64,000 nt of DNA from Allobosea sp. (GTDB taxonomy: Bacteria; Pseudomonadota; Alphaproteobacteria; Rhizobiales; Beijerinckiaceae). Under the pieces are notes generated by a model. It searched no databases and was not told where the DNA came from. It saw only the letters and a program-made list of their open reading frames with translations. Location of the stretch: positions 58,816-122,815 of the forward strand of contig NZ_JAFKFW010000011.1 in NCBI RefSeq assembly GCF_017308015.1, in the 5' to 3' direction. Positions within the stretch are counted from its first letter, which is position 1, and every line of letters begins with the position of its first letter. Position numbers and translations under genes: made by a program. Positions 30,798 through 53,906 of this stretch are shown here, piece by piece.

Positions 30798-31426
30798 TAG
30801 GGACGCCATGCAGCGAAATTGGACAGGAGCTGCATGCCGTAACGGTGGCTTTTCTCGGGATGGAACTGGACGCCGATGACCGTGCCGTTGGCGATCCCTG
30901 CATTAAACCGGCAGCCGCCATAGGAGGACTCCAGCAGGACGTCCTGGCGCGAGGCGCAATCGACCCAGTACGAATGCACGAAATAGAAGCGAGGCATTTC
31001 CAACCCCGTCAGAACCGGGTGCTCTTTGGCCGCCGCGACATGGTTCCATCCCATATGAGGGACGGTCGGCGGCTTCTGCCCGGTTTCGCCGGGCTGCAGG
31101 CGAAACTTGATGCTGCTCGCCGCGATCAGCCCAAGGCCTTCGCCGGGACCCTCCTCGCTGTCGTTGCCGAGTAACTGCATACCCATGCAGATGCCAAGCA
31201 GCGGTGTACCGCTCTTGAGGACTTTGTCGCGGAGCAGCGAACGCAATCCCATCTGAGCGACATTGCCGGCGCAGCGCGAAAAATTGCCGACGCCCGGCAG
31301 CAGCAGCTTGTCGGCTTTGGCGATGTCCTCATGCTTGTCGGTCAGCTTGGCTTCGATCCCCAGACGCCTGAACATGTTGAGGATCGAGCCGAGATTCCCC
31401 ATCTTATAGTCAATGATTGTAATCAC
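30797..31426 (-). CDS. HisH-like glutamine amidotransferase subunit (sugar amidination)
   Basis: A 209-residue class I glutamine amidotransferase of the HisH type. MITIIDYKMGNLGSILNMF, LLPGVGNF, the nucleophile Cys80 in LLGICMGMQLLG and VQFHPEKSHRYG with the catalytic His/Glu are all present. It should release ammonia from glutamine for the HisF-like partner and then WbpG. It overlaps asnB by four bases upstream and the HisF gene by one base downstream. Confidence 0.9.
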   Translation of the reverse strand: MITIIDYKMGNLGSILNMFRRLGIEAKLTDKHEDIAKADKLLLPGVGNFSRCAGNVAQMGLRSLLRDKVLKSGTPLLGICMGMQLLGNDSEEGPGEGLGLIAASSIKFRLQPGETGQKPPTVPHMGWNHVAAAKEHPVLTGLEMPRFYFVHSYWVDCASRQDVLLESSYGGCRFNAGIANGTVIGVQFHPEKSHRYGMQLLSNFAAWRP

Positions 31427-33381
31427 GCGCAGACAACCTGCATGGGGTCGCTGGAGGGCGCATCGTCATTGTCGAAGCCGTCGCGCCAGACATCGTCGCG
31501 ACCGAGCCTAAGCCACTCGCTCGCGCTGATCCAGCGCCATAGATACCAGGAGGTATCGGCCCCGGTCTGGTGCCGTTGCCATGCGGTCTCGATCGCGTCG
31601 CGATCGTAGGTCGCCTGCTCCACGATGGGACCGGCGAACAGCAGTTCATGGGCCCAGTCCTTCAGCGCGCCGCGCAGCCACCGATCCTGGGGCGCGGCAA
31701 AGCCGACCTTGTCGCCGCGCCATTGCACGTCTCGCGGGATGATGCCGTCCATCGCCTTGCGTAGCGGCCATTTCTGCCAGCCGTCCCGAATGAGGATCTC
31801 GTCCGGGAGATGGCTACACCAGTCGACCAGCTCGTGGTCGAGGAATGGGAAGCGGGCCTCGATGCCGAACGCCATTGCATTGCGATCCGACATGACGAGC
31901 TGGTTGGGCAGCATGTCGTGGAGCATACCATCGGCGAGGTAGGCCCGGAAGAAGCGCCCGCCCGCCGGATCGGGTGTCCCGATGCGGCGCTCGAGTTGCG
32001 GCTCCAACCGGGATGGCTTTCCGCGCATCACACGCGCTTTGTCGATGAAGCCGCGCTTGAGCATGTCGAGGATCGATCCGGCGGCATCGGCATTGAACCG
32101 GCGGTCGGCATCGGCATATTTCCGTGCTTCCTGCATCAGATGCCGGCGGTGAAGGTATGTCTGACGCGTCAGCTCGAACCAGCGGCCGGTGTTCAGCCAG
32201 TCGATCTGCTTGACGCCGAAATAGAACTGATAGCCGCCGAGCAGTTCATCTGCGCCCTGGCCGTCGATCATCACCGTCAGGCCGCTTTCGCGCGCGGCCC
32301 GATGTACGCACCATTCGAGATAGGCGGAAGCCGACAGGAACGGCATCTCCTGGTGCCAGTGGAGTGCCCGGGACTCCTCCATCAGTCGCAGCGGATCGGG
32401 CTCGATGCCGACGCCCGTGGCGCCACAATGGCGCAGCACGCTATCGATATGAGTTCCTTCGCTCAACGTCGGATCATCGCCGAAGCGCGCCGATATCGTA
32501 TGAAGCAACTGGTCTTTTCGGGCGACACCCTGTCCGGCCATGAGGCCGACGAGCGAGGACGAGTCGAGGCCGCCTGACAAGCAGGCGCCGACCTGTACAT
32601 CGGAGCGCAGGCGAAGCCTGACCCCATGCATGAGTCTTTCCCGGAACTCCGCCACGGCATCCGCCGGGCGGATCGGGCGGACATCGCCGAAATCGGGGAG
32701 CCAGTAGCGCCAGGAGCGGCGAATCCGGCCGTCTGCGGAGACGACCATCGCATGTGCCGCCTCGAGCTGGCTTACGCCGCGAAATAGGGTGTCGGCGCTG
32801 GCATAATCCGCCCGCCCGCCGGTGAAGACATTCAGGCGGTCCCGATCGAGCTCGACCGTCACGCCCGGATGCGCGAACAGCGCCTTCATTTCCGAGCCGA
32901 TCGCCAGGCCGCCGCCGGCGATGGCGGCATAGTAGAGCGGCTTCTCGCCGTAGCGGTCACGCGCCACGAAAGCTTCGTTGCGTCTTCCGTCCCAGATCAC
33001 GAAGGCGAACTGCCCGTTGAGGCGCCTCAGGCAATCCTCTCCCCAGACCAGGTAGGCCTGGACGAGCACTTCGGTATCGGACTCGGTCCGGAACGTGACA
33101 CCCGCCGCCCTCAGCTCATCGCGCAGTTCGATGTAGTTGAAGATCTCGCCGTTGAAGACGATCGCGATCCGGCCATCCGCTGCCAGCATGGGCTGCGTCG
33201 CGGCATTCGACAGGTCGATGATCGAAAGCCGGCGATGGCCCAGCCCGACAGTGGCGTCGCCGACGCGCTCCAGCCAATGTCCGGCGCCGTCGGGGCCGCG
33301 ATGGACGAGGCGGTCCCGCATCCGGACGAGGGTGGATGTATCGAGCGGTCCCGGAGCCAGGACCGCGACCAAGCCGCACAT
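31423..33381 (-). CDS. Asparagine synthetase-type amidotransferase, copy 1
   Basis: A 652-residue AsnB-family protein. It has the N-terminal nucleophile Cys2 (MCGLVAVLAPG), IVFNGEIFNYIELRDEL of the glutaminase domain, and in the synthetase domain the PP-loop CLSGGLDSSSLVGLM and MIDGQGADELLGGY. Copies in polysaccharide loci often amidate uronic or other sugar carboxyl groups; an amidated uronic acid would fit the WbpA pathway here. It overlaps hisH by four bases and ends seven bases before the methyltransferase stop. A paralogue is at 45531. Confidence 0.88.
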   Translation of the reverse strand: MCGLVAVLAPGPLDTSTLVRMRDRLVHRGPDGAGHWLERVGDATVGLGHRRLSIIDLSNAATQPMLAADGRIAIVFNGEIFNYIELRDELRAAGVTFRTESDTEVLVQAYLVWGEDCLRRLNGQFAFVIWDGRRNEAFVARDRYGEKPLYYAAIAGGGLAIGSEMKALFAHPGVTVELDRDRLNVFTGGRADYASADTLFRGVSQLEAAHAMVVSADGRIRRSWRYWLPDFGDVRPIRPADAVAEFRERLMHGVRLRLRSDVQVGACLSGGLDSSSLVGLMAGQGVARKDQLLHTISARFGDDPTLSEGTHIDSVLRHCGATGVGIEPDPLRLMEESRALHWHQEMPFLSASAYLEWCVHRAARESGLTVMIDGQGADELLGGYQFYFGVKQIDWLNTGRWFELTRQTYLHRRHLMQEARKYADADRRFNADAAGSILDMLKRGFIDKARVMRGKPSRLEPQLERRIGTPDPAGGRFFRAYLADGMLHDMLPNQLVMSDRNAMAFGIEARFPFLDHELVDWCSHLPDEILIRDGWQKWPLRKAMDGIIPRDVQWRGDKVGFAAPQDRWLRGALKDWAHELLFAGPIVEQATYDRDAIETAWQRHQTGADTSWYLWRWISASEWLRLGRDDVWRDGFDNDDAPSSDPMQVVCA

Positions 33382-33388
33382 TCTCTTC

Positions 33389-34297
33389 TCACGCGTTAGG
33401 AAGTTTCCGGAAGATCATCGTCGATCTCCGTCTGTCTCGGGCGCGGAAAGCATAGCACGCTTTGCCGCTGCGCTCCGCCGACACCAAACGCCGCACTGCC
33501 GGCTGCTCATGCAGATATCGTGCTAGGGTCCAGTAGCGATTCAGGTCGTGATCGTAGACATAGAGGCTCGGATCCGTCTCGTCGGCGCGGCTCTGCAGGA
33601 TGTAGCCGGCCTTATCGAAGGTGCGGATCACGCTTTCCGGCTGGCGCAGGCGGAAATAGCTGAACTCGTCGAGCTGGACCCGCAGCATCACGCCGAGCGT
33701 CGGGATGACGCTGTGGTTGACGATCAACAGCCCGTCATCGGCGAGGATCTCGCGGGTATCCTGCGCGAATTTCGCAAGGTCCTGGCAGAACATGATCGCG
33801 GCGCGCGCCATCACGATATCGAACGTCTTGGGAACCTCGCTCTGGATGCTGTGGCTGTTGAAATTGAACAGGCGGACATCGATTCCATGCGTGGCCTTCG
33901 CATAGTCGATGGTCGGCTGGTTGATCTCCGTCAGCGTCACCTTGGCGCCGAGCTTGGCGATCTCCATCAGGAAATGTCCGTTGCCGCCACTGATGTCGAG
34001 TACGCGCTTGCCGTAGAAGGCGATCCGGTTCGGTTCGGCATGCTGGCGCAGGAAGTCGCCGGCCGTGCCGATCGAGTAGTCGATATGATCCTGGTGGGTG
34101 AAGTAATCATACATCGACGCCTCGTCCTCCTTCATCTTCTTCAGATGGGGGTCGGGCAGAAACGTCAGGGAATACCGGTCCTTCTGCTGCGGAAAGGCGT
34201 CGCCGCAGGCATGGCACAGGAACCAGCTCCGCTTGTAGGTGTTCAGCGAAAGCAGATCGTCCGACTGGCAGGAAGGGCAGATCACGGCGGATCCCAT
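33389..34297 (-). CDS. Zinc-ribbon class I SAM-dependent methyltransferase
   Basis: A 302-residue methyltransferase. The N-terminus has a C-X2-C...C-X2-C zinc-ribbon (ICPSCQSDDLLSL, WFLCHACGDAF), then VLDISGGNGHFLMEIAKLG, the SAM motif I, and a domain resembling the Methyltransf_11/12 group. Such zinc-ribbon methyltransferases occur in polysaccharide and nucleotide-sugar pathways, so O- or C-methylation of a sugar is plausible. Its target is unknown; O-methylation of a phosphoramidate is one possibility. Confidence 0.8.
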   Translation of the reverse strand: MGSAVICPSCQSDDLLSLNTYKRSWFLCHACGDAFPQQKDRYSLTFLPDPHLKKMKEDEASMYDYFTHQDHIDYSIGTAGDFLRQHAEPNRIAFYGKRVLDISGGNGHFLMEIAKLGAKVTLTEINQPTIDYAKATHGIDVRLFNFNSHSIQSEVPKTFDIVMARAAIMFCQDLAKFAQDTREILADDGLLIVNHSVIPTLGVMLRVQLDEFSYFRLRQPESVIRTFDKAGYILQSRADETDPSLYVYDHDLNRYWTLARYLHEQPAVRRLVSAERSGKACYAFRARDRRRSTMIFRKLPNA

Positions 34298-34300
34298 CGT

Positions 34301-35716
34301 TCACTGGCGCGCCGCGAGGCGGGCGTCTTCAGGCGGCCGATCAGGGTAATGCCACATTCCGTTCATATGCACGAGAGGCGGATCGGAATCATTGCTCGGT
34401 GCGTAGTTCAGGCAGCCGAAGCGCGACCAGAGATCGTAATGCGCAGCACTATCTGCTTTCGCCGCCGCATCATCGATCGCCAGCGAAAGCAGATAGTGCT
34501 GCGCGCCGAGGAGAAGCGGGCCGAGCACCATGCGGAAGGTCGTCTCCGCGCCGGCGGGAAGATCGTCCAGCTTGATGAGCTCTCCTCCGGCAGACGCAAA
34601 GCGCTCGCCGGACAGCGAGTATATCCGCAATTGCGGCGTGATCGCGAAACTGCCGCCCGTGGCGCTGGACAGCCGCACCGTCAGTTCCAGCTCGTCGCCG
34701 ACGACGAGGCCGGTCATCCGTGCCGGGGATGCGCGCATCTCGATCCCGGCGATGCGCAACCCCGGCTTGCCCGGATAGGACATGACGGTCCGCCCGTTCA
34801 CCCGTGTGATGGGGACCGGCTCGCCGTCTATCCGTTCCGCAGCGCGGATGGCCTCGGCCACGAATTCGGTGTCGAGGCTGGCCGGGAGGTCGAAGGGATC
34901 GGTCGCTTCCTCGATCCGGGCGGCCGCGCCGCCATGGGCCGCGGCGATGTCCTCCATCTCCGCCTGATAAGCCGCAAGCACGGCTTCGGCAGGGCCGTCC
35001 TGGTGGACCCGCCCCTCTCGCAGCCAGATGACGCGCTCGCAATATTGCAGGATCTGCGTGGCGTCGTGGGACACGAGCAGGATCGTGCAGCCGCTATCGA
35101 CCAGTCCCCGCATCCGGTTTGCGGACTTGACCGCAAAATAGCCGTCTCCCGCGCCCAGCACCTCGTCGATTACGAGGATGTCGGGCTGGATGGCCGTCGC
35201 CACCGCGAACTGGGTCCGTGCCTGCATGCCCAGCGAGTAGACGCCGAAGGGCTGGTTGATATGCAGGCCCAGCTCCGTGAAGGCGACCACGTCGGCGATG
35301 GCGTCCCTCAGGCGCTGGCCGGTCAGCCCGCTCTGGGACAGGGCGGCTTCGATGTTCTGGAAGCCGGTCAGGTCGGGATGGAACCCGCCCGCTACGCTCA
35401 TCAGCGCCTGGACGGTCCCGTTCCTTTCGATCGCGCCTTCGCTCGGCGCGACGGCACCCGTCGCGAGCTTGAGCATCGTCGTCTTGCCGGAGCCGTTGCG
35501 CCCGACGATGCAGACCCGCTCGCCGCGGCGGATCGACAGGTTCAGGCCCCTGAGCGCGGAGAAGACCGGAATCTCCGGCCGCTTCCGAAAAGGCAGGCGG
35601 CGCAGGCCGAGCTGGTCGACGGCGACCTGCAGCGGCGAGGCATACATCTTGTAGAGCTTGGCGACGCCGGAGAACGACAGGGCCGGCTGCTCGGGGAGCG
35701 GAGAGGGGAGCGTCAT
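34301..35716 (-). CDS. ABC transporter ATPase, Wzt type with C-terminal extension, copy 1
   Basis: A 471-residue polysaccharide-export ATPase. The Walker A is GRNGSGKTTMLKLATG, the signature is the degenerate YSLGMQARTQFAVA usual in Wzt/KpsT/TagH, and the Walker B is ILVIDEVLGAGD. About residues 270-471 form a beta-rich extension (ITPQLRIYSLSGERFASAGG, then WSRFGCLNYAPSN) resembling the carbohydrate-binding domain of Wzt that reads the O-antigen terminus. It overlaps the amidotransferase gene by four bases. No permease is adjacent; the only permease is at 44700. Confidence 0.88.
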   Translation of the reverse strand: MTLPSPLPEQPALSFSGVAKLYKMYASPLQVAVDQLGLRRLPFRKRPEIPVFSALRGLNLSIRRGERVCIVGRNGSGKTTMLKLATGAVAPSEGAIERNGTVQALMSVAGGFHPDLTGFQNIEAALSQSGLTGQRLRDAIADVVAFTELGLHINQPFGVYSLGMQARTQFAVATAIQPDILVIDEVLGAGDGYFAVKSANRMRGLVDSGCTILLVSHDATQILQYCERVIWLREGRVHQDGPAEAVLAAYQAEMEDIAAAHGGAAARIEEATDPFDLPASLDTEFVAEAIRAAERIDGEPVPITRVNGRTVMSYPGKPGLRIAGIEMRASPARMTGLVVGDELELTVRLSSATGGSFAITPQLRIYSLSGERFASAGGELIKLDDLPAGAETTFRMVLGPLLLGAQHYLLSLAIDDAAAKADSAAHYDLWSRFGCLNYAPSNDSDPPLVHMNGMWHYPDRPPEDARLAARQ

Positions 35717-36342
35717 CCGAGCGCGACCTTCAAGGGCTGTCCGGACAGGATCGCTTTAAGCAGCCGCTGCTGACGCTCCGGCTCGGCGATCGTCCTTTCA
35801 GGATGCCACATCAGGCAGGTGATCGGGCGAGCGCCGTGGAACGCGGCCTCGACGGTATCGTCGCTGCCCCAGAGCAATGGCTCGAGCTCGGGAGCGAGAT
35901 CCGCGCGGTCGATGCCGAAATCGTGGAAACTGTTGACGAGGAACGACGCTCCATTGGCGGCCGAAACCTTGTGGCTGGCCGCGACATGGCCTTGCACGGG
36001 CCGAACCTGTCCGCCGAGGCGCTGGTTGATCGCCTGCATGCCCCTGCAGATGCCGATGGTGACACGTCCGTGCCGCTCCGCCCAGGACAGCATGGCCCCT
36101 TCGAGCAGGTTGCGGTCCGCATCCGGCTCGCTGCCGGGCAAGGGATCGCTTCCGCCGGTCAGGATCAGCGCATCGGGCTGAAGCCGATCGAGCAGCGCAA
36201 GGGGATCGGTCGCGGCATTGGGCAAGGCGATCATCTGGCAGCCGAGACGGCCGAGCAGCCGCGCCCATTCCTGGTCGAGGCAGTCACGGCGCTCCTTGTA
36301 GCGCGTTTCCTCATGGGTCCGTTGACTGAGCGCGACCAGCAT
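35713..36342 (-). CDS. Class I glutamine amidotransferase, Cj1417-like (candidate gamma-glutamyl-CDP-amidate hydrolase)
   Basis: A 209-residue peptidase C26-type enzyme: VALSQRTHEETRYKERRDCL, ALILTGGSDPLPG, nucleophile Cys99 in TIGICRGMQAINQRLG, VNSFHDFGI, and His180/Glu182 in CLMWHPERT. The pattern matches, from memory, Campylobacter Cj1417, which hydrolyses CDP-L-glutamine to cytidine diphosphoramidate and glutamate in capsule phosphoramidate synthesis. It lies three bases from the Cj1418-like kinase gene, and a Cj1416-like cytidylyltransferase is close by. The alternative is a generic gamma-glutamyl hydrolase, for which neither the neighbours nor the VNSFH motif speaks. Confidence 0.78.
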   Translation of the reverse strand: MLVALSQRTHEETRYKERRDCLDQEWARLLGRLGCQMIALPNAATDPLALLDRLQPDALILTGGSDPLPGSEPDADRNLLEGAMLSWAERHGRVTIGICRGMQAINQRLGGQVRPVQGHVAASHKVSAANGASFLVNSFHDFGIDRADLAPELEPLLWGSDDTVEAAFHGARPITCLMWHPERTIAEPERQQRLLKAILSGQPLKVALG

Positions 36343-36345
36343 CGA

Positions 36346-39300
36346 CTACCTCAGCACCATGATGCGCCGTGCTGCGCAGTCGAGCTCGACGATTTCGGCC
36401 TTCAGCAACGCGTCCATCTTGATCTCGCCAACCCCGATCGCGGCCGGTAACCCGAACTCCGCCGCACGGATGGCCATGTGTGAATTGGCCCCACCATAGG
36501 TCGTGACGAAGCCCGCGAGCTTGCGCCCGAACAGCCAGTCATAGCCGGGATCGGCATTCTCGATAAGGGCGATGGCGCCGTCGAGCGCATCGTCCTTCAC
36601 CAGGCTGGTGACGGGGACGACACGCGCTGTAGCCTTGCCCATCGTGACGAAGTTCGGATCGACCTCCGGCATGATGAAGGACTCGAAGTCACGGGCGTCG
36701 GTCAGAAGCGGCGGCAATTGCATGGACTGGACGAGCCGCACCCTGTCCTTGGCGGTCGAGATCCGGCGCCGCAGGCGGTCGACATCCGGCCCTATCGATC
36801 CCGCGCCGATGCTCAGCACGTCGCCGATGCTGAGATAGGCCGCATCGGAGTGCTCGATGCCGCTGGCTTCCGCCCAGGAGGCGATGTCCCTCAGGGCCGA
36901 GCAGACGCTGCGGGAGAAGATGAACTTGGCTTCCTCGCGCCCTTCGATCGAACGCCGCAGGAAGCGATCGATCTCATGCATCTCTTGCGGAAGCTCTGCC
37001 GCCTGCATGGCTTTCTGCCAGTTCCGGGTCTCGTCCGCCGACCAGGCGAAGGAGGGGTGGGATGGCTCCACAGCGTTGTCGACGAGCGGGCGCAGGTAAT
37101 CTTCCGGTGCCTCCCCATAGGATGGCGCCCCGATATCGTATGTGCCCGGACGCAGGTGAGCGTAACGCGCGACGAATTCATCCCACCCGAGAGCGCCCTT
37201 GCGCACCTGCCAGGCATCTTCGGGAAGGCGATGGCCCACCGTCCGGATCGAGCCGAGGAAATCGGTCATGCGGGCAGCCGAGATCAACCCGGTCTGCACG
37301 GTGCTCTTGAGCAGCGACATCGCGACGAAGCCGCAGCGCGCGAGATGCGCGAATAGCAGAGTCCCGGTCCGGCGGCAGACATGCAGGCTGGCCTGGAGCC
37401 GGCTGAACAGGGCGCCCTCGGCCGCCAGGAGTCTTTCCTGCAGCGCGGCATAGGACTCCAGCGCAGTCCATGAGCGTTCGCAGCGCGTGAACGCATGGCG
37501 CGTAACTGTGGCCAGGGCCGCCCGATAATCGGCGATTTCGGCTTGGTCGAGTCCGGCTTCACCCAGCCGCTCCCGCCAGGAATCGAACGTGAAATCGAAG
37601 CAGGTCAGCGTGATCCCGAATTCCAGCTTGTCGTGCAGATGCGGTTCGCGGCGCAGCCGGGCGATGCCTGCCTCGACGATCTTGCGGGCGACGGCATCGG
37701 GAATGGCGGCGGGGATGAAGCTGTTCAGGCTCGCGCGGACATCCACGTAAGGGTGGCCCGCGAACAGCCGAATGAGCGGTTGATGCCGGAGATCGCGATA
37801 GCCGAATTCGGCGCGCTGGACCGCCCAGGTCTCGTCGGTGATGAGATGGCGGTACAGGCTTTCCGCGAGCGGAGCGGGTGTGATCCCGATCAGCTCGGCT
37901 GGGTTCCAGTCCGGCATGATGCCGTAGATCGTGGCGGCGCCGACGACGCCGGGCATCGGCGCCTGGCTGTCGCGGAACGCCTGCTGCGCATAGGCGATCT
38001 CACGGGCGATGAGCGCGTCCGTGTCGCCGGTCCGCTCTCGCTCCATGACCAGGGGGCGAACCTGGAGAATATGGCAGGTGCCCTCGTCGTCGATCGCGAA
38101 CTCGACATCGAGCGTATCCAGCTCCGTCAGGCGCTCGACCTCGTCGAGCGCCTCGACGAGGCGGGCGAGTGAGGAGTGCGCGTCGGGTGGCAGCTCGGTC
38201 GCGCTCCGATGCAGGTAGATGACGCTGCTCTCTCCGCGCATGCCGCTGGTCACGATATCGGTGCGGCTGCCCTCGGAGGAGTTGATCACCCGATAGGGCG
38301 CCCCGATGCCGAGCGTCCGGGTGAAGGCCACGCCGCTGCGCGCGACATTACGGATCATCGGCTGGACGAGGACCTGATGATCGTCGCCCTCGTCATAGGA
38401 TGCGATGACGCGCTCGATCGCTGCGGCAAGGCTTTCCGCATCGAAGCCGACGTTCAGCTCGGACTGGAACTTGCCCGCATTGCTTTCGCTGAAGCCATCC
38501 TCGTTGCGGGCGCTGGAGCGGACGGCGAGATCGCCGGCCGGCAGCTCCGCCAGGACACGTTCTGCGATCGCAGCCCGATCGCAGCGCCAGTCTGCGACCG
38601 AAAACGTCGCCTGCGGCGCGATCCGGGCCTTGGTCACGACCTTCGCCAGCCGCGCCAGCGTTTCGGCCTTGGTGCCGAAGATGAAGCGGGCGAGAACGGC
38701 CTCGCTGTCCAGGTCGGTCCAGTGGCCGGACGCGTCATGGAAGCTGAAGGCTTCGCCGCGCTGGCGGAGCGTCTCCAGCCAGGCGGTGAGATGGGCCTTG
38801 GGGTCTTTCGTCAGCGTGGCGGCGAGAGCATCGGCCGCGGCCTCGACGCGAGAGGCTGGGATCCTGATGAAGCCGACGACGTCATGCACGGCCTTATCGA
38901 GCTCGGCTGCCCGCCCGAAAGCGGATGGCTGGCCGTCCGGGCCGAACAGGACGACCTCGCGGCTGGTGCGGCGCGCCGTCCGGCGCGACGAATCCACGGC
39001 GAGCCCGATCCGCTCCGGCGAAGCGGTGCTGCTCAGTGCCTGGACGAGATCCGGCCGGAACAGGATGTCGGCGTAGCTGATATAGACATCCTGCCCTGAG
39101 CCCAGCCCGGCTTCGGCGAGCGAGCGGATGCTGCCCGAACGTTCCCAGTCAGGATTGACGGCATAGTGCAGTTGCGGGAACCGCTCCATGATGTCGGTAA
39201 CGGCGTATCCGCCGACGAAATGGACGTCGTCGCCGAGCGGCGACAGGGTCGAGAGCAGCCAGTCGAGCACGTTGCCGCGCCGGCTCACCGCCCTCAGCGA

Positions 39301-39360
39301 GCTGTGGCTCTCGCCGTGAAAGGGCCGGCCGGCGCCAAGAATGATGACGCGCGGCTTCAT
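36346..39360 (-). CDS. Nucleotidyltransferase-like/glutamine kinase fusion (Cj1418-like)
   Basis: A 1004-residue multidomain protein. Residues 1-230 resemble a sugar-phosphate nucleotidyltransferase (ILGAGRPFHGESHSSLR, VYISYADILFRPDL) but lack the usual GxGxR signature and lysine spacing. Residues ~236-450 look like a PEP-synthase/PPDK ATP-grasp (LAVRSSARNEDG at 278-289). The C-terminal PEP-utiliser-type mobile domain carries His961 in YGGANSHMAIRAAEFGLP. From residue ~230 on it has the size (~770) of Cj1418, the L-glutamine kinase that starts capsule phosphoramidate synthesis in C. jejuni. It sits between the GATase and the formyltransferase-like gene (four-base overlap). The N-terminal domain is an unusual addition. 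Confidence 0.75.
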   Translation of the reverse strand: MKPRVIILGAGRPFHGESHSSLRAVSRRGNVLDWLLSTLSPLGDDVHFVGGYAVTDIMERFPQLHYAVNPDWERSGSIRSLAEAGLGSGQDVYISYADILFRPDLVQALSSTASPERIGLAVDSSRRTARRTSREVVLFGPDGQPSAFGRAAELDKAVHDVVGFIRIPASRVEAAADALAATLTKDPKAHLTAWLETLRQRGEAFSFHDASGHWTDLDSEAVLARFIFGTKAETLARLAKVVTKARIAPQATFSVADWRCDRAAIAERVLAELPAGDLAVRSSARNEDGFSESNAGKFQSELNVGFDAESLAAAIERVIASYDEGDDHQVLVQPMIRNVARSGVAFTRTLGIGAPYRVINSSEGSRTDIVTSGMRGESSVIYLHRSATELPPDAHSSLARLVEALDEVERLTELDTLDVEFAIDDEGTCHILQVRPLVMERERTGDTDALIAREIAYAQQAFRDSQAPMPGVVGAATIYGIMPDWNPAELIGITPAPLAESLYRHLITDETWAVQRAEFGYRDLRHQPLIRLFAGHPYVDVRASLNSFIPAAIPDAVARKIVEAGIARLRREPHLHDKLEFGITLTCFDFTFDSWRERLGEAGLDQAEIADYRAALATVTRHAFTRCERSWTALESYAALQERLLAAEGALFSRLQASLHVCRRTGTLLFAHLARCGFVAMSLLKSTVQTGLISAARMTDFLGSIRTVGHRLPEDAWQVRKGALGWDEFVARYAHLRPGTYDIGAPSYGEAPEDYLRPLVDNAVEPSHPSFAWSADETRNWQKAMQAAELPQEMHEIDRFLRRSIEGREEAKFIFSRSVCSALRDIASWAEASGIEHSDAAYLSIGDVLSIGAGSIGPDVDRLRRRISTAKDRVRLVQSMQLPPLLTDARDFESFIMPEVDPNFVTMGKATARVVPVTSLVKDDALDGAIALIENADPGYDWLFGRKLAGFVTTYGGANSHMAIRAAEFGLPAAIGVGEIKMDALLKAEIVELDCAARRIMVLR

Positions 39361-40214
39361 GGTGTTCCATCACTGAGAAGGCGCATTGCCTTGCGCTGCA
39401 GGCGGGCATGCATCCAGTAGAAATTCCGTCCGCTCTCGGGATCCTGCGGCGTGTTCGGCAGCAAGGCGAGGTCCCGGCCTCCGCAGGCCGCGACGACATC
39501 GGCAAGAAGCTGAGCGCGCAGATGCGGGTCATAGGCGTAGAGCAGGGCCGAATAAACGACGTCCGGACGCTGCTCGATCGCCTCCTTCAGGAACGGCATG
39601 GTCGGCCGTTCGAACTCCCGCGTGCGGATGATCGAGCCGGTATCGATTCCGGGATTCATGTAGAAGCAGCTCATCCCTGGCCGCCCGCGCGTCAGCAACG
39701 ACCAGAACAGGCCGTCCGAGCCCCGCACATGCGGAACCACGCCGGGGTGGATATGGATCATCCTGAAGCCCGGCCGGTCGAGCAGCGCCGGCGGAACCCT
39801 GCCGCCATTGGTGTAGAGCCAGACGGGGATGCCGGCCTTCATCAGCCGCTCGTGCAGGTCCCTGTCGTCATAATCCTCGGCGACGAAGGGCAGAACCTGT
39901 TCAGCATGTTTCGACCAATCGAAGGCGCCGAAATAGTCGACCGGGTGCGGAACGACGGCCTGCATGGCCTCGCAGAGCGCCCGGAAACCGTCGTCGAAAT
40001 GCCGGTCCGGCAGCCTGCGCCGCTGTTTCAGTAGTGGCGCGACGAGCCGGTCGAACTGCCCGCGCAGGCCTTGCCTGTGCCGGAAAGGGCCGGTGAAATC
40101 GGTCAGCAGCACGAGCCGGACCCGATAGCCCGCGGCCCTGAGATAGGTCAGATAGGTGCGCGACGTCGAACAGAAGCGGTCCGCGACGATTCCGAGATCG
40201 ATGGTCTGCATCAC
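39357..40214 (-). CDS. Formyltransferase-like protein
   Basis: A 285-residue protein. Residues 154-196 (HIHPGVVPHVRG, then NPGIDTGSII) match the active-site region of the formyl transferase N-terminal fold used by methionyl-tRNA, glycinamide-ribotide and sugar formyltransferases; Asn136, His154/156 and Asp191 are candidates for the Asn-His-Asp triad. It lacks the C-terminal tRNA-binding domain, so N-formylation of an amino sugar or a related hydrolase reaction is more likely. It overlaps the kinase gene at one end and the small unknown gene at the other by four bases each. Confidence 0.65.
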   Translation of the reverse strand: MMQTIDLGIVADRFCSTSRTYLTYLRAAGYRVRLVLLTDFTGPFRHRQGLRGQFDRLVAPLLKQRRRLPDRHFDDGFRALCEAMQAVVPHPVDYFGAFDWSKHAEQVLPFVAEDYDDRDLHERLMKAGIPVWLYTNGGRVPPALLDRPGFRMIHIHPGVVPHVRGSDGLFWSLLTRGRPGMSCFYMNPGIDTGSIIRTREFERPTMPFLKEAIEQRPDVVYSALLYAYDPHLRAQLLADVVAACGGRDLALLPNTPQDPESGRNFYWMHARLQRKAMRLLSDGTP

Positions 40215-40651
40215 GGGGCTTCGCCGAGGGAGACGCGCAGGGCACTCTCGAAGGCGGCGGGAAGGGCGATGGGCCTGTCGATGAGAATGCCGTCCTGCAT
40301 TTTCATGGCGGTGTTCAGAAATTTCCAGTCGCCGCGTACGAGGCCGGCGAACACGAACAGACAGGCGAGATAGGTCGACACCTCGGCCCGTACCGGCCTG
40401 TCATCCACGGGCTTGCCGAAGCCGTCGATATAGGCAGCCCGAAGCCGGCGGCCAACCTCGACCTTCCGCGACAATTGTTCCAGCACGGCAACGGCTGCAT
40501 CGTCGGCCGTCAGCAGGGCGGGATCGAGGATGATCCCCTCGGTCGCGGGCTGCTCGGGCGACGCGAGCGACTTGAGCGCCGCCGCGAGCATCTCCCGCAG
40601 CGCCTCCGGGGTGCCGGCTGTGACCACGGGCCTTTCAGCGGCGATCGTCAT
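40211..40651 (-). CDS. Small hypothetical protein in the phosphoramidate region
   Basis: A 146-residue protein I do not recognise. It has no signal peptide, P-loop or transmembrane helix; it is largely alpha-helical in character (LREMLAAALKSLAS; AAVAVLEQLSRKVEVGRRL) with a central YLACLFVFAGLVRGDW segment. It is tightly embedded: the start overlaps the nucleotidyltransferase end by 17 bases and the stop overlaps the formyltransferase-like gene by four. Position implies a role with these two enzymes. Confidence 0.7.
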   Translation of the reverse strand: MTIAAERPVVTAGTPEALREMLAAALKSLASPEQPATEGIILDPALLTADDAAVAVLEQLSRKVEVGRRLRAAYIDGFGKPVDDRPVRAEVSTYLACLFVFAGLVRGDWKFLNTAMKMQDGILIDRPIALPAAFESALRVSLGEAP

Positions 40652-41423
40652 AGAAGGCCAGCAATTCGCCGCTTTGCGCGAGGCCGTTATAGGCCTCGTA
40701 ATCGGCCAGGCTGTCGATCTCCAGCCAGCCGCGGTTGAAGAAGCCCGGACGCACCTCGATTCCTGCGTTGATCATCGCCTGGATGAAGGACGTCATGAAC
40801 ATGTTCGCCTTGTCCCGGCCGTCATGCGGGCCGACGGGGTCGAGCTTGTCGTAGAGATCGACGATGCCGCGCTGGGCATCGGCCCTGAGCTTTATCAGGC
40901 CAATGTACTGGCCTTCAATGTCGGCGTAGCTCTGGGGCTTGCGGCCGAGCTCGACCAGTTCGCCGGCCGGTCCGATCTTGAGTGTCTCCGCATCCGAGAG
41001 CGGATCGTCCATGCGCAGGCTCCACAGGTCGCGCCAGCCCCGGTCGACCGCCACGGCGACGGGGGCATCGACCGCAAGCAGCGCGGCCAGGACCGTGCGC
41101 TGGTAGACGATGTCGCCATAGCAGATCAGGAGGTCGCGCGATCCGTCGAGAAGATGACGTGCGCAGAAGAGCGACGACACCATGTTGGTGCGCTCATAGT
41201 CCGGATTCAGGACCTTCTTCAGACCCGGAAGCTGGATCCGATCCTCAAGATGCCCGGCCACGATCGAGATGTCGTCGACCCCCTCCGCGGCGAGCGTCCG
41301 CAACTGACGCGACAGCAGGCTCTCCCCGGCCAGGGGCGTCAGGCATTTGGGAGCGGTGTCGGTGAGCGGCCTCAGCCGGGAGCCGAAGCCGGCGGCGAGG
41401 ATGACGGCACGCGGTGAGGTCAT
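40635..41423 (-). CDS. Cj1416-like nucleotidyltransferase (candidate CTP:phosphoglutamine cytidylyltransferase)
   Basis: A 262-residue nucleotidyltransferase with an intact signature (LAAGFGSRLRPLTDTAPKCL, residues 10-29) and DLLICYGDIVYQ at about residue 100. VDRGWRDLWSLRMDDPLSDA, ETLKI, FMTSFIQAMINAGIEV and NRGWLEIDSLADYEAYN follow the pattern I recall for C. jejuni Cj1416, which joins CMP to L-glutamine phosphate. LicC-type phosphocholine cytidylyltransferases are the nearest alternative. It overlaps the TagF-like gene by four bases. Confidence 0.75.
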   Translation of the reverse strand: MTSPRAVILAAGFGSRLRPLTDTAPKCLTPLAGESLLSRQLRTLAAEGVDDISIVAGHLEDRIQLPGLKKVLNPDYERTNMVSSLFCARHLLDGSRDLLICYGDIVYQRTVLAALLAVDAPVAVAVDRGWRDLWSLRMDDPLSDAETLKIGPAGELVELGRKPQSYADIEGQYIGLIKLRADAQRGIVDLYDKLDPVGPHDGRDKANMFMTSFIQAMINAGIEVRPGFFNRGWLEIDSLADYEAYNGLAQSGELLAFYDDRR

Positions 41424-42541
41424 CGGAGGTCCTTCATCAAGGCGATCAGGCTGGCCGCGGCGCGCTCGCCGACATGGGCTTGTTCATAGAGGAAATCGGG
41501 TACGACGGCCGCAATGGCCTCCGGAGGCGGGGGCACCTCGATCGCCGTGAGGATCGCCTGCATCGCATCGCCAAGATTGCAGGCTGCGATGGCGCCGAGC
41601 CGCGCGCGCAGCGCGATTTCGACCGGTTCGGACGCGATCTCCTGCCAATCCGGGTTCAGCACCTTCTTGGGCAGGTCGACGAAGACCGTCGGCCGGTGCC
41701 GCAATGCGGCGTATTCGAAGGCGATGCCGGAATAGTCGGTCACCAGCACATCCGCGCTCAGCATCGCGGTCTGGACGATATCGGTCGAGGTTTCCAGGAC
41801 GAAGCGGGGGTTGCCGGCCGCGGCTTCCAGCGTTGCGGCCAGTTCCGGCTCCTGCTTGAGGAAGAAGCTCGGATGTGGTCGCAGCGTGACCTGCAGGCTT
41901 TCCGCCAAGAGCCCGGCCACGAGCTGCGGACCCATACTGCGCAGCAGATTGGCCTCGCCCCAGGAGGGTGCCAGAAGCACATGCCGTTGGGGCTTGGAGG
42001 GGCCAGCCGCCTTGAGCACATCGGCGAGCGGGTCCATCTTTCCGTAGCCGACATCCACGGACAGCCCCGGCGCCAGGCCATGGCGCGCACGGATCAGTTC
42101 CCACTCGCGGGTATGATGCGGGCCGGCCGCAAACAGCACGTCGTAATCGTCGAACGCATCGCCCGGATAGATCATGTGCAGGCTGACCAGCGAATGCGGC
42201 ATGTGAACGAACCGCCGCAGCGACGGCCCGAAGAACGCCCTGGGAATGCCGCTCGACGCGGTGACGACTAGTCGCATCCGGAGCTTGTGTAGCTCTTCGA
42301 TATTCGAGGTCTCGATCAGCGAAACCCCAAGCGCAGCATAGCGGTCCTTGAGCGCCTGCGGCGCCGCGCCCGGCCCGCCCGAGAGCACCAGCCGCAGCTT
42401 GAGCCCGCGGGCGAGGCAGGCCGCGATCGTGCTGCGGACCCAGATCTCGTCGATCCAGCTCGATGCGTAGAAATCGACATCGACGCCATGGCCCGGCCTT
42501 CCGAAGAAGCGGCGCATCGCTTGCAGGAGGCGGCGTTCCAC
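41420..42541 (-). CDS. CDP-glycerol glycerophosphotransferase-like (TagF/TagB) protein
   Basis: A 373-residue protein with the teichoic-acid polymerase C-terminal pattern: VLLAPSWGEANLL, LRPHPSFF, SADVLVTDYSGIAFEYAALR and PTVFVDLPKKVLN. The family transfers alcohol-phosphate from a CDP-linked donor. No glycerol-3-phosphate cytidylyltransferase (TagD) is near, and the neighbouring cytidylyltransferase looks Cj1416-like, so I infer that this enzyme may transfer phosphoramidate from cytidine diphosphoramidate. A glycerol- or ribitol-phosphate transferase remains possible. Confidence 0.72.
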   Translation of the reverse strand: MERRLLQAMRRFFGRPGHGVDVDFYASSWIDEIWVRSTIAACLARGLKLRLVLSGGPGAAPQALKDRYAALGVSLIETSNIEELHKLRMRLVVTASSGIPRAFFGPSLRRFVHMPHSLVSLHMIYPGDAFDDYDVLFAAGPHHTREWELIRARHGLAPGLSVDVGYGKMDPLADVLKAAGPSKPQRHVLLAPSWGEANLLRSMGPQLVAGLLAESLQVTLRPHPSFFLKQEPELAATLEAAAGNPRFVLETSTDIVQTAMLSADVLVTDYSGIAFEYAALRHRPTVFVDLPKKVLNPDWQEIASEPVEIALRARLGAIAACNLGDAMQAILTAIEVPPPPEAIAAVVPDFLYEQAHVGERAAASLIALMKDLR

Positions 42542-42553
42542 GATCCGTGCCTG

Positions 42554-43369
42554 TCAGATCTTTCTCATCACGTAGAATTCGCGCAGGCCGGATTCCGTCT
42601 TCTTGAAGACGCCGTCCCACGAGAACAGGTCGCGCACGGTTTCCATCGCCGCGTAGAAATCGGCCTGGCCGGGATCGGCCGCATGGGTTTCGAACAGGAG
42701 CAGCCCGTCCGGCGCGAGATAGGAGTGCATCCGCTCCATATGGTCCCGGATCGACACCCGGTAATTCTCGTCGTCGGTCCAGTGCGTCGCGAAGGACAGA
42801 ACGACGGTGAACGGTTCCTTGGCCGCGTATTCTTGAATGCGGACGGCCTCCAGGGAGACGAGGCTCCCGACATTGAGATGGTCCGCGCAGAGACGGCCGA
42901 TCTCGATCATATAGGGGTTGATGTCGATGCCATGGGCGCGGCACCCGGTCCGATAAGCCGCCATCAGCGCGATGAAGCCGCAGGAGCACCCGATGTCGAG
43001 GACGTTGTCCTTCTCGCTGATGAACTTCCTCAGCTCGTATTCGTCGAAGCGCGGATCGGCGAGCCGGTCCCCGAACACGTTCAGGAGCCCGAGGCCCTGA
43101 TAGGGATAGCCGTTGAAATAGGTATAGCTCTTGTATTCCTGCGCTTGCCGGCGAAGCGTGTCGTTGATCGCGGCGTTGAGGCCGCGCAGGCGCACGACGG
43201 GATCGCGGTCGTTCAGTCCGCGATCATCGGCATAGATCGCGTTCATGAGCTCGCGGCTCAGCGCGACCATCTTGACGCCGAAATCGTTCAGGCGCGACGA
43301 GAGCTTGAGCGCGAGAGGCCAGCGGCGCTGGTCTGCTGAAAAATAGCGGCGGACGAAAACCGGGATCAT
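42554..43369 (-). CDS. SAM-dependent methyltransferase
   Basis: A 271-residue class I methyltransferase with motif I NVLDIGCSCGFIALMAAYRT and HGIDINPYMIEIGRL, then FTVVLSFATHWTDDENYRVS and LAPDGLLLFETHAADPG. The N-terminal ~110 residues are unrelated to the fold core. The substrate is unknown. With the zinc-ribbon methyltransferase at 33389 it gives two methyltransferases in the locus, as in the Campylobacter phosphoramidate cluster (Cj1419/Cj1420), but homology to these is not established by eye. Confidence 0.8.
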   Translation of the reverse strand: MIPVFVRRYFSADQRRWPLALKLSSRLNDFGVKMVALSRELMNAIYADDRGLNDRDPVVRLRGLNAAINDTLRRQAQEYKSYTYFNGYPYQGLGLLNVFGDRLADPRFDEYELRKFISEKDNVLDIGCSCGFIALMAAYRTGCRAHGIDINPYMIEIGRLCADHLNVGSLVSLEAVRIQEYAAKEPFTVVLSFATHWTDDENYRVSIRDHMERMHSYLAPDGLLLFETHAADPGQADFYAAMETVRDLFSWDGVFKKTESGLREFYVMRKI

Positions 43370-43384
43370 GGTGCTTCTTGAACC

Positions 43385-44707
43385 TTAATGTCGTGCGGGT
43401 CGAGCGAGCGAGACCTGCAGGGGATGCCGTATCAGAAAATCGTCATCGCCGCCCGGGGGCACGACCTCGAAGTCGAGCGCATGCGCCAGCACGTCGTACC
43501 GGGCCTCCTGAGCTGCAGCCGAGCCGTGCTTGTCGACATCGTAGACGGAAAACGACACGAAATAGCGGCCGCGGGTCAGGACTTGCGCCGGCGTCTCGAA
43601 GCGGATGCTGCGGCGTTCGCCGGCCACCAGAGTGAAGCGGTCCACGTCGTTCTCGATCCTGCCCACCCGCCGTCCGGCCGCGGTCCAGAGCGTGATCACA
43701 TAGCGGCAGATATAGTCGCCGTCTTCTTCCGCCACGATCGAGAGGCCGACCTTCAGCGGCTCGCCGGGCCGGAACTTGTTCGTCGGTCCCAGTTCGTTCT
43801 CCAGGCTCAGGCTGTCGATCTTGACCCCCTTCTTGCCCGGCCAGCGGTAGACGTGGCGGCCGTCGCCAAGCCGTGTCTTCATCTCGTCGGAGGAGGCCGG
43901 CGGCTCGAAGCGCGATTGCGGGTCCTCGCTGCTGATGCCCAGTCGCGACAGTCGCTCCAGATAGACTTCATAGGCGTCGATCACCTCGAGCGCCGGCCCG
44001 TCCATGACGAGGCGTCCGCGATCCAGCCAGATCACGCGATCGCAGAACTCCAGGATCTGCTGCATCGAATGTGACACGATCAGCATCGTGGCGCCGCGCT
44101 CGACGAAGCCCTTCATCCGGGCGGCGGATTTATGCGTGAAATAGACGTCGCCCGCGCCGAGGATCTCGTCGATGATCAGGATATCGGGGTCGACCGCCGT
44201 GGCGACCGCGAATTGCAGCCTCGAGCCCATGCCGAGCGAATAGGTCTTGAGCGGCTGGTCGAGATGGTCGCCGAGCTCGCAGAAATCGATGATCTCGTCG
44301 ACGACGCGGAGCATCTCGCTCTCCGGCAGCCCGTTATAGGCGAGGGCGGCATGGATGTTCTCCCGCCCCGTCATCTCGTTCGAGAAGCCGATCCCGGTCT
44401 GCATGAGGCTGTGGACGGTTCCGTTCCGCTCGATCGTGCCGCGGCTCGGCTTGAAATTGTCGGTGACGAGCTTCAGGAGGCTCGTCTTGCCAGCGCCGTT
44501 GCGGCCGATGACGCCGACGCGCTCCCCCTTGCTGACCGAGAAGCTGATATCGGCGAGGGCGTCGAAGGAAGGAAATTGCGGCCGCAGCGCACGCGGCACC
44601 AGCCGATAGAATCCGAAAGCGTCCAGCGCCCGCTGCCCCGGCGTCTCGTAGAGCGGGAACGTCTTGCCGACATTCGAGAAGCGCAAGGCCGGGCTTGCGT
44701 CAGGCAT
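43385..44707 (-). CDS. ABC transporter ATPase, Wzt type with C-terminal extension, copy 2
   Basis: A 440-residue export ATPase with Walker A GRNGAGKTSLLKLVTDN, signature YSLGMGSRLQFAVATA and Walker B ILIIDEILGAGD. The last ~180 residues form a beta-rich domain (ICRYVITLWTAAGRRVGRI; RYFVSFSVYDVDKHGS) as in Wzt. It overlaps the permease gene at 44700 by eight bases, so it is the direct partner of that permease. A paralogue lies at 34301. Confidence 0.9.
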   Translation of the reverse strand: MPDASPALRFSNVGKTFPLYETPGQRALDAFGFYRLVPRALRPQFPSFDALADISFSVSKGERVGVIGRNGAGKTSLLKLVTDNFKPSRGTIERNGTVHSLMQTGIGFSNEMTGRENIHAALAYNGLPESEMLRVVDEIIDFCELGDHLDQPLKTYSLGMGSRLQFAVATAVDPDILIIDEILGAGDVYFTHKSAARMKGFVERGATMLIVSHSMQQILEFCDRVIWLDRGRLVMDGPALEVIDAYEVYLERLSRLGISSEDPQSRFEPPASSDEMKTRLGDGRHVYRWPGKKGVKIDSLSLENELGPTNKFRPGEPLKVGLSIVAEEDGDYICRYVITLWTAAGRRVGRIENDVDRFTLVAGERRSIRFETPAQVLTRGRYFVSFSVYDVDKHGSAAAQEARYDVLAHALDFEVVPPGGDDDFLIRHPLQVSLARPARH

Positions 44708-45518
44708 AGTCGTAGAATGCCAGCTTGGCGCGCTGGAACAGCCAGAAACCGCCCGAGAACGACAGGATCGACGAGAGGACCATGGCCGTCGCGAGCTTGC
44801 CCGTCGGAAGGGCGCCGCGCACGAGGATCTCCTGATAGGACAGGACGAAATAGGCCAGCGGATTGAGATAGGTCAGCAGCGCCAGCCGCGGCGGGACCAT
44901 TTCCAGCACGTAGCCGATCGGCGTCACGATCAGCAGGATGATCACGAGATACTGGATGAGATGCTGGATGTCCCGCAGCACCAGGGTCACCAGCGCCAGC
45001 ACCCAGACGATGCCGCAGGTGAACATGAACTGGAGCAGCATGACGACGGGAAGCGCGAGGACGCTGGTGTCGGCCGATCCGTAGAGCATCGCACCCAGAG
45101 CAATCACCAGCCCTCCGACGAGAAGGGGCGGAAGCGTGACGATCACTGCCCTGACCGGAAGAAGTTCCGGCGGGAAGACGGTGCTGGTCAGCATCTGCTT
45201 GTTGCGGATCACCGAGACCGAGCCGCCGGCCAGAGCCCCCGCGAAGGAGAGAAAGGCGATCAGCCCTGCCGAGACATGGGCGATGTAGTCCGCGGTGGTC
45301 AGTCCGGGGACGCGAACCTGGAAGATATAGGCGTAGGTCAGAGTGTAGATGGCGAGCAGCAGAAGCGGCGCCAGGATCACCCAGGCCAGCCCGAGCACCG
45401 ATCCCGCATACATCATGCGCAGCTCGATCAGCGACGTCGTGGTCAGGATCGCCCGGTGCCGGAAGACCAGTTGCCACGGCGCCAGCAGGAAATCTCCGAC
45501 TTTACGGGCAAGTGTCAT
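44700..45518 (-). CDS. ABC transporter permease, Wzm/KpsM type
   Basis: A 272-residue membrane protein with about six transmembrane segments: WQLVFRHRAILTTTSLIELR before the first, VLGLAWVILAPLLLLAIY, LIAFLSFAGALAGG, and a C-terminal FSGGFWLFQRAKLAFYDYA. It is the ABC-2 export permease type that moves undecaprenyl-linked O-antigen or capsule across the inner membrane. It overlaps the ATPase gene by eight bases and lies 12 bases after asnB copy 2. Confidence 0.92.
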   Translation of the reverse strand: MTLARKVGDFLLAPWQLVFRHRAILTTTSLIELRMMYAGSVLGLAWVILAPLLLLAIYTLTYAYIFQVRVPGLTTADYIAHVSAGLIAFLSFAGALAGGSVSVIRNKQMLTSTVFPPELLPVRAVIVTLPPLLVGGLVIALGAMLYGSADTSVLALPVVMLLQFMFTCGIVWVLALVTLVLRDIQHLIQYLVIILLIVTPIGYVLEMVPPRLALLTYLNPLAYFVLSYQEILVRGALPTGKLATAMVLSSILSFSGGFWLFQRAKLAFYDYA

Positions 45519-45530: not shown

Positions 45531-47420
<1,890 letters not shown>

Positions 47421-50960: not shown

Positions 50961-51562
50961 CAGGCAATCTCCTCAAGCTGCTCCGGTGCGGTTTCCCGGT
51001 AGCGCGTTCCGGTCAGTGGGCAGGTCAGGTCGGGCCCGAGCCTCTCGCCGGCCTTGCTCATCCAGCCGATCCGGCGCGCCGGCACCCCGGCCATCAGAGC
51101 ATAGTCCGGCACATTCTTGGTCACCACCGCGCCGGCGGCAATGAAGCAATACGCGCCGAGCGTGTGCCCGCAGACGATGGTCGCGTTCGCCCCGATGCTC
51201 GCGCCGCGCTTCACCAGCGTGCGGCGGAACTCTGCCTTGCGGTTCATGAAGGCGCGCGGATTGTTGACATTGGTGAAGACGCAGGACGGGCCGCAGAACA
51301 CGTCCGCCTCCAGCTCGACACCGTCATAGAGTGCGACGTTGTTCTGGATCTTGCAGCCGTCGCCGATGGTTACCCGCGGCCCGGCCATCACGTTCTGGCC
51401 AAGCACGCAGTCGCGGCCGATCGTGGTCTGGCCGAGCACATGCACGAAGTGCCAGATCTTGGTGCCGGTGCCGAGCGTCGCGCCCTCGTCGACATAGGCG
51501 CTCTCATGCACGAGCGCGCCCGGGAAACGCGGATCTTCCCGCATCTGGGACGCGCCGGCCAT
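50960..51562 (-). CDS. Hexapeptide-repeat N-acetyltransferase (WbpD-like)
   Basis: A 200-residue left-handed beta-helix acetyltransferase with many imperfect hexapeptide repeats (ATLGTGTKIWHFVHVLGQTT, IGRDCVLGQNVMAGPRVTIG) and the loop FTNVNNPRAFMNRKAEFRRT. It matches WbpD, which N-acetylates the 3-amino group of UDP-GlcNAc(3NH2)A. The start at 51562 has AAGGGC upstream; ATG at 51544 is an alternative. It lies between the WbpE- and WbpB-like genes. Confidence 0.9.
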   Translation of the reverse strand: MAGASQMREDPRFPGALVHESAYVDEGATLGTGTKIWHFVHVLGQTTIGRDCVLGQNVMAGPRVTIGDGCKIQNNVALYDGVELEADVFCGPSCVFTNVNNPRAFMNRKAEFRRTLVKRGASIGANATIVCGHTLGAYCFIAAGAVVTKNVPDYALMAGVPARRIGWMSKAGERLGPDLTCPLTGTRYRETAPEQLEEIA

Positions 51563-51564
51563 CG

Positions 51565-53906
<2,342 letters not shown>

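Follow-up and report, generated by a model that had tools for sequence, protein, structure and literature searches.

A candidate phosphoramidate-biosynthesis cluster with a second set of partner genes in an alphaproteobacterial polysaccharide locus

Genes of the cluster and their surroundings

The window analysed here is a whole stretch of 64,000 nucleotides of contig NZ_JAFKFW010000011.1 from Allobosea sp. (Alphaproteobacteria). The host is no relative of Campylobacter, yet it carries, on the minus strand between positions 35713 and 42541, genes predicted to make the rare phosphorus-nitrogen group of the Campylobacter capsule. The initial annotation had described there an amidotransferase, a protein with ATP-grasp and phosphohistidine features and a cytidylyltransferase, and had proposed that they perform the three steps assigned to Cj1416, Cj1417 and Cj1418 in C. 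jejuni. The three proteins are indeed encoded together on the minus strand, with the amidotransferase residues as described, and the three steps are supported at the sequence level. The same interval also contains an extra nucleotidyltransferase-fold (NT) domain, a formyltransferase-like protein, a small protein and a Glyphos_transf protein, all of which had been missed.

The central gene (36346-39360) encodes a protein of 1004 residues in which Pfam recognizes a PPDK_N ATP-grasp stretch and a C-terminal phosphoenolpyruvate (PEP)-utilizer domain. On the basis of model PRK05849, Pfam and motifs, residues 223-1004 (36346-38694) constitute a predicted L-glutamine kinase domain resembling Cj1418. 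Residues 223-1003 reach 835.7 bits with NF004508/PRK05849 (cut-off 501) and span model positions 6-788 of 789; Cj1418 itself is presumably a member of NF004508. The swivel histidine is His961, and the kinase motifs are conserved over 51 loci. When the whole protein was compared to the PDB with phmmer, the mobile domain was the only part matched. A plain PEP synthase identity was rejected, the PEP synthase models staying below 40 bits.

The gene at 35713-36342 encodes a 209-residue protein of the C26/class I amidotransferase fold, which its best model, its residues and its context designate as a predicted Cj1417-like gamma-glutamyl-CDP-amidate hydrolase (CDP, cytidine diphosphate). The catalytic Cys99, His180 and Glu182 are present, and a VNSFH motif occupies positions 136-140. 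The best model is NF045546 with 98.9 bits, the next family reaching 26 bits. In 6 of 6 hydrolases tested from other loci of the same type, NF045546 is again the best model (92-119 bits), and all these scores lie under its cut-off of 250. Since the window's protein also misses this cut-off, it is said to work like a gamma-glutamyl-CDP-amidate hydrolase rather than to be a member of the equivalog. The third protein (40635-41423) is a predicted Cj1416-like phosphoglutamine cytidylyltransferase of the LicC type, as indicated by NTP_transf_3, by the LicC structure 1jyk and by its conserved association with the two other genes; its GxGxR...PK motif is intact. A curated model for phosphoglutamine cytidylyltransferase did not turn up in the NCBIfam scan. 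The initial annotation had named PEP synthases, LicC-type cytidylyltransferases and plain gamma-glutamyl hydrolases as competing identities. The kinase and hydrolase scores speak for the Campylobacter-type families; the cytidylyltransferase is LicC-like, yet it is a conserved partner of the kinase and the hydrolase. Because the trio co-occurs in 48 of 55 kinase loci, in several phyla, the evidence supports a single module, whose predicted product is cytidine diphosphoramidate, formed from glutamine, ATP and cytidine triphosphate (CTP).

The kinase is preceded, in the same polypeptide, by the NT domain (residues 1-222; 38695-39360), recognized by profile matches, alignment, AlphaFold2 modelling and comparison to the PDB. 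The model has a mean confidence (pLDDT) of 91, and the PDB matches are IPCT, PntC, LicC and GlmU. In an alignment of 9 NT domains (those of loci L054-L056 and L058 being outside it), the nucleotide-binding GxGxR...PK motif is lost in the window's protein, and only the L012 domain keeps the PK. A role as the working phosphoglutamine cytidylyltransferase was rejected on this ground and because the separate gene is the conserved one. Judging from the motif, the NT domain probably no longer binds CTP. It may hold or pass on phosphoglutamine or a CDP intermediate.

The Glyphos_transf (TagB/TagF-like) protein encoded at 41420-42541 passes the PF04464 cut-off (36.9 bits for 22.1) and is the candidate phosphoramidate transferase. 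The formyltransferase-like protein (39357-40214) has 22.6 bits with Formyl_trans_N, for a cut-off of 26.1. The catalytic triad of this family is Asn-His-Asp. In the window's protein, HxHPG replaces the usual NxHP (His154, His156, Asp191), while the motif His and Asp are retained. A histidine replaces the motif asparagine in 11 of 11 members found at trio loci. Weak NCBIfam matches include the dTDP-amino-sugar formyltransferase NF005755 (E 0.002). An AlphaFold2 model derived from three sequences had a pLDDT of 48 and was not used. In 397 Pseudomonadota genomes, just three relatives exceed 280 bits, all at kinase loci, and the next one has 65 bits; as these three had been used to build the query alignment and scoring was limited to 6 candidates per genome, the informative point is that no strong relative was found elsewhere. 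Beside this gene, 40211-40651 encodes a small protein of 146 residues with no Pfam or NCBIfam match, whose relatives occur in L032 and, in divergent form, in L011, L033 and L054.

These genes are embedded in a tightly packed, operon-like minus-strand run extending from 45518 to 29994. It begins with a Wzm-like permease and a Wzt ATPase carrying a Wzt_C domain, which together form a polysaccharide exporter (43385-45518; Pfam, with ABC2_membrane at 24.5 bits, just under the cut-off of 26.9). Then come a Pfam-recognized S-adenosylmethionine-dependent methyltransferase (42554-43369), the Glyphos_transf protein, the cytidylyltransferase, the 146-residue protein, the formyltransferase-like protein, the kinase fusion and the hydrolase. 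Directly after the latter stand a second Wzt-like ATPase (34301-35716; Pfam, NCBIfam), a second methyltransferase (33389-34297; Pfam), an AsnB-like protein (31423-33381), HisH and HisF2. Because all junctions between 42541 and 33389 (Glyphos_transf gene through second methyltransferase gene) measure -17 to +3 bases, this part looks like one tight operon. The methyltransferase at 42554-43369, with relatives in L012, L032, L033 and L054, is not the one usual in Campylobacter-like trios. Among the genes scanned in the run there are two Wzt-like ATPases (34301-35716 and 43385-44707) for one Wzm-like permease, and a recognizable Wzt_C domain is found in only one of the two ATPases.

Around the operon are amino-sugar genes, for a sugar dehydrogenase, a Gfo/Idh/MocA protein, a hexapeptide-repeat transferase and a DegT aminotransferase, and a second AsnB-like protein, identified by eye (45531-47420). 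The amino-sugar-acid and acetamidino-modification genes (HisF2, HisH, WbuX) are distributed over 27297-28691, 29994-31426 and 49803-53906, with HisF2 at 312.9 bits (cut-off 310) and WbuX at 285.5 bits (cut-off 203.2). Considering the exporter and these genes, the cluster is predicted to be part of a locus for an ABC-exported polysaccharide, which probably contains an acetamidino sugar. In a relative of the same genus, G012, gene order is kept over the whole 20 kb compared. In another, G044, the order is the same between the upstream AsnB gene and HisF, apart from the absence of the second methyltransferase (33389-34297). A search with the Cj1417 family at E 0.001 matches 14 of 14 controls and 99 of 101 genomes, and only matches near 100 bits were therefore used; these occur in 3 of 61 genomes of the genus, including the window's own, which indicates that the cluster is not there by chance.

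Distribution of the trio and two types of neighbourhood

Relatives of the kinase protein were found at 21 loci in a scan of genome contigs, to which plasmid records (Vibrio alfacsensis, Roseovarius pelagicus, Azospirillum, Agrobacterium vitis) were added. Because the first set of loci was fetched with peptide patterns of the window's own protein, including one that lies in the NT domain, the share of NT-fused loci given below is not a natural frequency. No viral-contig stretch matches the patterns, and spread on viruses was dropped as an explanation. The kinase domain is present in 13 of 397 Pseudomonadota genomes, in 5 of 296 genomes of the phylum of L013, in 4 of 321 of the class of L011, and in 1 of 192 and 1 of 149 of the phyla of L012 and L016, respectively; each draw includes its centre genome, which is the sole positive in the last two.

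Hydrolase and cytidylyltransferase genes both lie within 9 kb of the kinase in the 48 loci mentioned above. The 7 remaining loci (L023, L025, L028, L045, L046, L061, L062) were left out of the trio counts; in L025 and L028 the contig breaks off within the kinase gene, and in the five others the partners were not found nearby. Once near-duplicates are removed (L027, L032, L039, L040, L064), 43 trios remain, with the hydrolase at most 1.5 kb from the kinase in 40 of them and the cytidylyltransferase at most 2 kb away, likewise in 40. Complete trios occur in records titled Pseudomonadota, Bacteroidetes, Firmicutes, Amycolatopsis, Patescibacteria, Omnitrophota and archaea, several being metagenome bins. 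In Amycolatopsis (Actinomycetota; L026, L027), the full trio is accompanied by a Cj1415-like kinase and the usual methyltransferase. On plasmids of Cupriavidus taiwanensis (L061:8947-11310) and Microvirga lotononidis (L062), the kinase is found with neither hydrolase nor cytidylyltransferase nearby, and the Cupriavidus stretch also holds nifK, a thiamine pyrophosphate (TPP) enzyme and aminotransferase genes.

The kinase is fused to an NT domain, as in the window, in 11 of the 43 trios and is plain in the 32 others. The neighbours differ between the two groups. We take Cj1415 to belong to the adenosine 5'-phosphosulfate (APS) kinase family, proteins of which stand near most trios; such a neighbour is seen in 1/11 NT-fused loci versus 26/32 others (Fisher p 3.8e-5). 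The usual, UbiE-like methyltransferase follows the same trend (0/11 versus 23/32, p 2.9e-5). Conversely, a Glyphos_transf neighbour and a formyltransferase-like neighbour are each present in 7/11 NT-fused loci versus 3/32 others (p 9e-4 in both cases). The sole NT-fused exception, L012, has an ordinary APS kinase (best model PRK03846, 300 bits), whereas PRK05541 is the best model for 9 of 9 APS-kinase-like neighbours tested at other loci. Of the Cj1415-like neighbours at plain loci, 26 in number, NCBIfam models were applied to these 9 and also to that of L016; the rest were recognized by a profile built for this analysis. In L059 (8563-11550), the glutamine kinase carries at its N-terminus a fused CysC-like domain that matches the Cj1415-like profile, at the place taken elsewhere by the NT domain. 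This fusion directly links the Cj1415-like and glutamine kinase enzymes. After correction for L012 and L059, the Cj1415-like kinase is found in 0/11 NT-fused trios versus 27/32 others (p 7.6e-7). As the loci are related, all these p values overstate independence and serve as guides only.

The formyltransferase-like protein is never found together with the usual methyltransferase: among the 43 trios, the latter accompanies 0/10 loci with the formyltransferase-like gene versus 23/33 without (p 1e-4), and the exclusion holds outside the NT-fused loci (0/3 versus 23/29, p 0.017). A tree of the kinase domains pairs the fused L034 with the plain L031 as sisters, and likewise the fused L012 and L013 with the plain L018 and L029, titled archaea; in both sister pairs the neighbours differ according to the fusion state. 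The tree needs 4 changes to account for the fusion, and does not show a single origin. Relatives of a sulfotransferase-domain protein from Azospirillum are encoded in 7/27 trios with a Cj1415-like kinase versus 0/16 others (p 0.03). Members of the CDP-alcohol phosphatidyltransferase family, enzymes which use CDP-activated groups, are encoded beside the trio in L056 and in Agrobacterium/Allorhizobium plasmids, with no Cj1415-like kinase nearby. These associations suggest that donor form and transferase type may go together. What is new here, judging from gene content, is a second coherent variant of the trio, set apart by the NT fusion and by its partner genes.

Several of these neighbourhoods have features of their own. 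In Pseudidiomarina planktonica (L011:4056-8962), a PEP mutase/cytidylyltransferase fusion, a TPP enzyme, an iron-type alcohol dehydrogenase and a Glyphos_transf protein are encoded directly before the fused kinase, so that phosphonate and phosphoramidate genes share one locus. PEP mutase matches were discarded as a sign of phosphonate synthesis in the window's genome: three exceed the cut-off there, but 9 of 14 controls also have matches above it. On plasmids of Agrobacterium vitis (L063:8914-14003) and Allorhizobium ampelinum (L039:8992-14071), the trio is followed by LysE-type and CDP-alcohol phosphatidyltransferase family genes; no polysaccharide gene is annotated in the stretches viewed, and the L039 kinase is annotated as two pieces. 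On a Vibrio alfacsensis plasmid (L034:7513-16050), cysD and cysN immediately precede the fused kinase, which is followed by an XrtA/PEP-CTERM exopolysaccharide region; cysC is not annotated in that stretch.

A possible route to a polysaccharide phosphoramidate and its alternatives

Considering the families present, the kinase domain would phosphorylate the amide nitrogen of glutamine. The cytidylyltransferase (40635-41423) would then convert phosphoglutamine and CTP into CDP-glutamine, and the hydrolase (35713-36342) would split the latter, releasing glutamate and cytidine diphosphoramidate (CDP-NH2). The next step in Campylobacter is the addition of a 3'-phosphate to CDP-NH2 by a Cj1415-type kinase. 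The initial annotation had found no such kinase in the region, and this holds for the whole genome, estimated by a tool to be 100% complete: with the PRK05541-type protein of L017 as the query, in place of Cj1415 itself, the best match has 17.6 bits (E 0.007) in a 561-residue frame. None was found in the G044 genome. The donor would therefore most likely stay CDP-NH2. The TagF-like protein (41420-42541), as its association with such loci suggests, would recognize the CDP end, as in CDP-glycerol, and move the NH2-PO2 group onto the polysaccharide. The reading that we prefer, with a probability of about 0.6, is that the cluster supplies a phosphoramidate donor and that the group is added to an ABC-exported polysaccharide through TagF-like transfer from CDP-NH2.

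The formyltransferase-like protein and its small partner would replace the usual methyltransferase and probably add a one-carbon unit to the transferred group, this being the weakest step of the scheme. It may be imagined that the transfer is folate-dependent and directed to the phosphoramidate, but this chemistry is a guess. A complete second ending of the pathway would thus combine direct use of CDP-NH2 by a TagF-like enzyme (elsewhere perhaps one resembling CDP-alcohol phosphatidyltransferases), a formyl-type cap in place of the O-methyl group, and a dead NT domain serving as a module that binds or channels an intermediate, at the position which the 3'-kinase can occupy at another locus. 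Taken as a whole, this ending is offered as a tentative proposal. It is also conceivable, though rather doubtful, that the formyltransferase-like protein plays no part in the phosphoramidate chemistry and instead adds a formyl group to an amino sugar in the polysaccharide. The weak NF005755 match and the amino-sugar genes of the locus would fit; the restriction of its strong relatives to kinase loci, within the limits of that search, and its mutual exclusion with the usual methyltransferase, inside and outside the NT-fused group, would not.

Several points weigh against the preferred reading. Activity and product are predictions, the hydrolase lies far below the curated NF045546 cut-off (98.9 of 250), and kinship between loci inflates the independence behind the Fisher values. 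A sulfotransferase domain is weakly matched in the NT-fused L055 (20.6 bits, cut-off 27), the Glyphos_transf match of L035 stays under the Pfam cut-off (21.2 of 22.1 bits), and no CDP-using transferase was found among the scanned genes of the NT-fused L013 and L058. Moreover, a Glyphos_transf gene is found near three trios that do have a Cj1415-like kinase (L022, L042, L050). This last observation would suit another model, in which CDP-NH2 is still the product of the trio, but the TagF-like protein uses a different CDP donor to build an alditol- or sugar-phosphate backbone, and an unrecognized enzyme transfers the phosphoramidate. Such a model has a precedent in the C. jejuni HS1 complex, where, in the available part of the report, TagF and TagD are encoded beside phosphoramidate genes and the backbone resembles teichoic acid (PMC7901785). 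The glycerol-3-phosphate cytidylyltransferase TagD (TIGR01518) has no match in the window's genome, in G012 or in G044, in a search that matches 12 of 14 controls, 2 of 14 over the cut-off. The TagF-like protein thus lacks an evident supply of CDP-glycerol as a donor. However, cytidylyltransferases of this family can take phosphoglycerate and other substrates, according to an extract of one study (PMC12275187), so that other CDP donors are possible without TagD. Given the 4-base overlap between the TagF-like and cytidylyltransferase genes, and the enrichment of TagF-like genes in trios lacking the 3'-kinase, we regard the backbone model as rather unlikely.

The same promiscuity could also indicate that the kinase family has drifted, phosphorylating another amide or an acid and leading to a different CDP-activated group, the more so as the window's kinase shares only about 32-47% identity with other trio kinases outside G012. 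The hydrolase, however, retains its catalytic residues and stays with the kinase, which makes such a drift quite improbable. Finally, the first three genes would equally fit the ordinary Campylobacter-type route, in which a Cj1415-type kinase encoded elsewhere produces 3'-phospho-CDP-NH2 for an unknown transferase. One more point against direct use of CDP-NH2 comes in here: G012, which has the same cluster, shows a 73-bit Cj1415-like match elsewhere in its genome. Its 657-residue frame, judged by length, is probably a bifunctional sulfate-activation enzyme. With the 17.6-bit best match in the window's genome and none in G044, and with no usual-type methyltransferase at E 1e-10 in the three genomes (a search run without a positive control), the ordinary route appears very improbable. 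Direct transfer from CDP-NH2 by the TagF-like protein remains the preferred reading.

Comparison with known systems

The window resembles the C. jejuni Cj1415-Cj1418 pathway in having the three core enzyme types side by side, as seen through the PRK05849, NF045546 and LicC models. It differs in that no Cj1415-type kinase was found, in the NT domain, and in the TagF-like and formyltransferase-like partners. With the TagB/TagF CDP-glycerol glycerophosphotransferases, the protein at 41420-42541 shares a PF04464 match above the cut-off, but its genome has no TagD match and CDP-glycerol is therefore probably not its donor. The formyltransferase-like protein has a weak likeness to Formyl_trans_N, with the His and Asp kept; the change of Asn to His and the score under the cut-off set it apart. 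In the C. jejuni cluster itself, Cj1419 and Cj1420 are putative methyltransferases. In the available part of a 2025 article, they have no assigned function (PMC11800397).

In the accessible sections of the literature, the glutamine kinase pathway is described for Campylobacter, plus one predicted Borg region (PMC12660748), and a review calls the glutamine kinase specific to C. jejuni (PMC9561416, in extract). Within Campylobacter, orthologues of cj1416-1418 were found in 13 of 30 strains, according to part of a 2014 study that also mentions phosphoramidates without O-methyl in lipopolysaccharides of Xanthomonas and Shewanella (PMC3907429). The Borg elements, as presented in part of the corresponding report (PMC12660748), share with the window a CTP:phosphoglutamine cytidylyltransferase predicted in a host other than Campylobacter; phosphonate genes are also reported in them. 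They differ in being archaeal elements with a structure-based prediction of an O-methyl phosphoramidate region. A literature search, which misses most subscription papers, returned no report of the NT-fused variant.

The present comparison offers a testable rule, whereby a donor with a 3'-phosphate would go with a transferase of the 3'-phosphoadenosine 5'-phosphosulfate (PAPS) style, and a donor without it with a transferase of the style that uses CDP-activated groups. The trios also indicate organisms other than Campylobacter where one may look for the transferase and for the capping step. Thus, whereas the literature is centred on Campylobacter, complete trios occur in several phyla with two coherent sets of partners and, if the predictions made here are true, phosphoramidate chemistry would be broader and more varied than the reports found describe.

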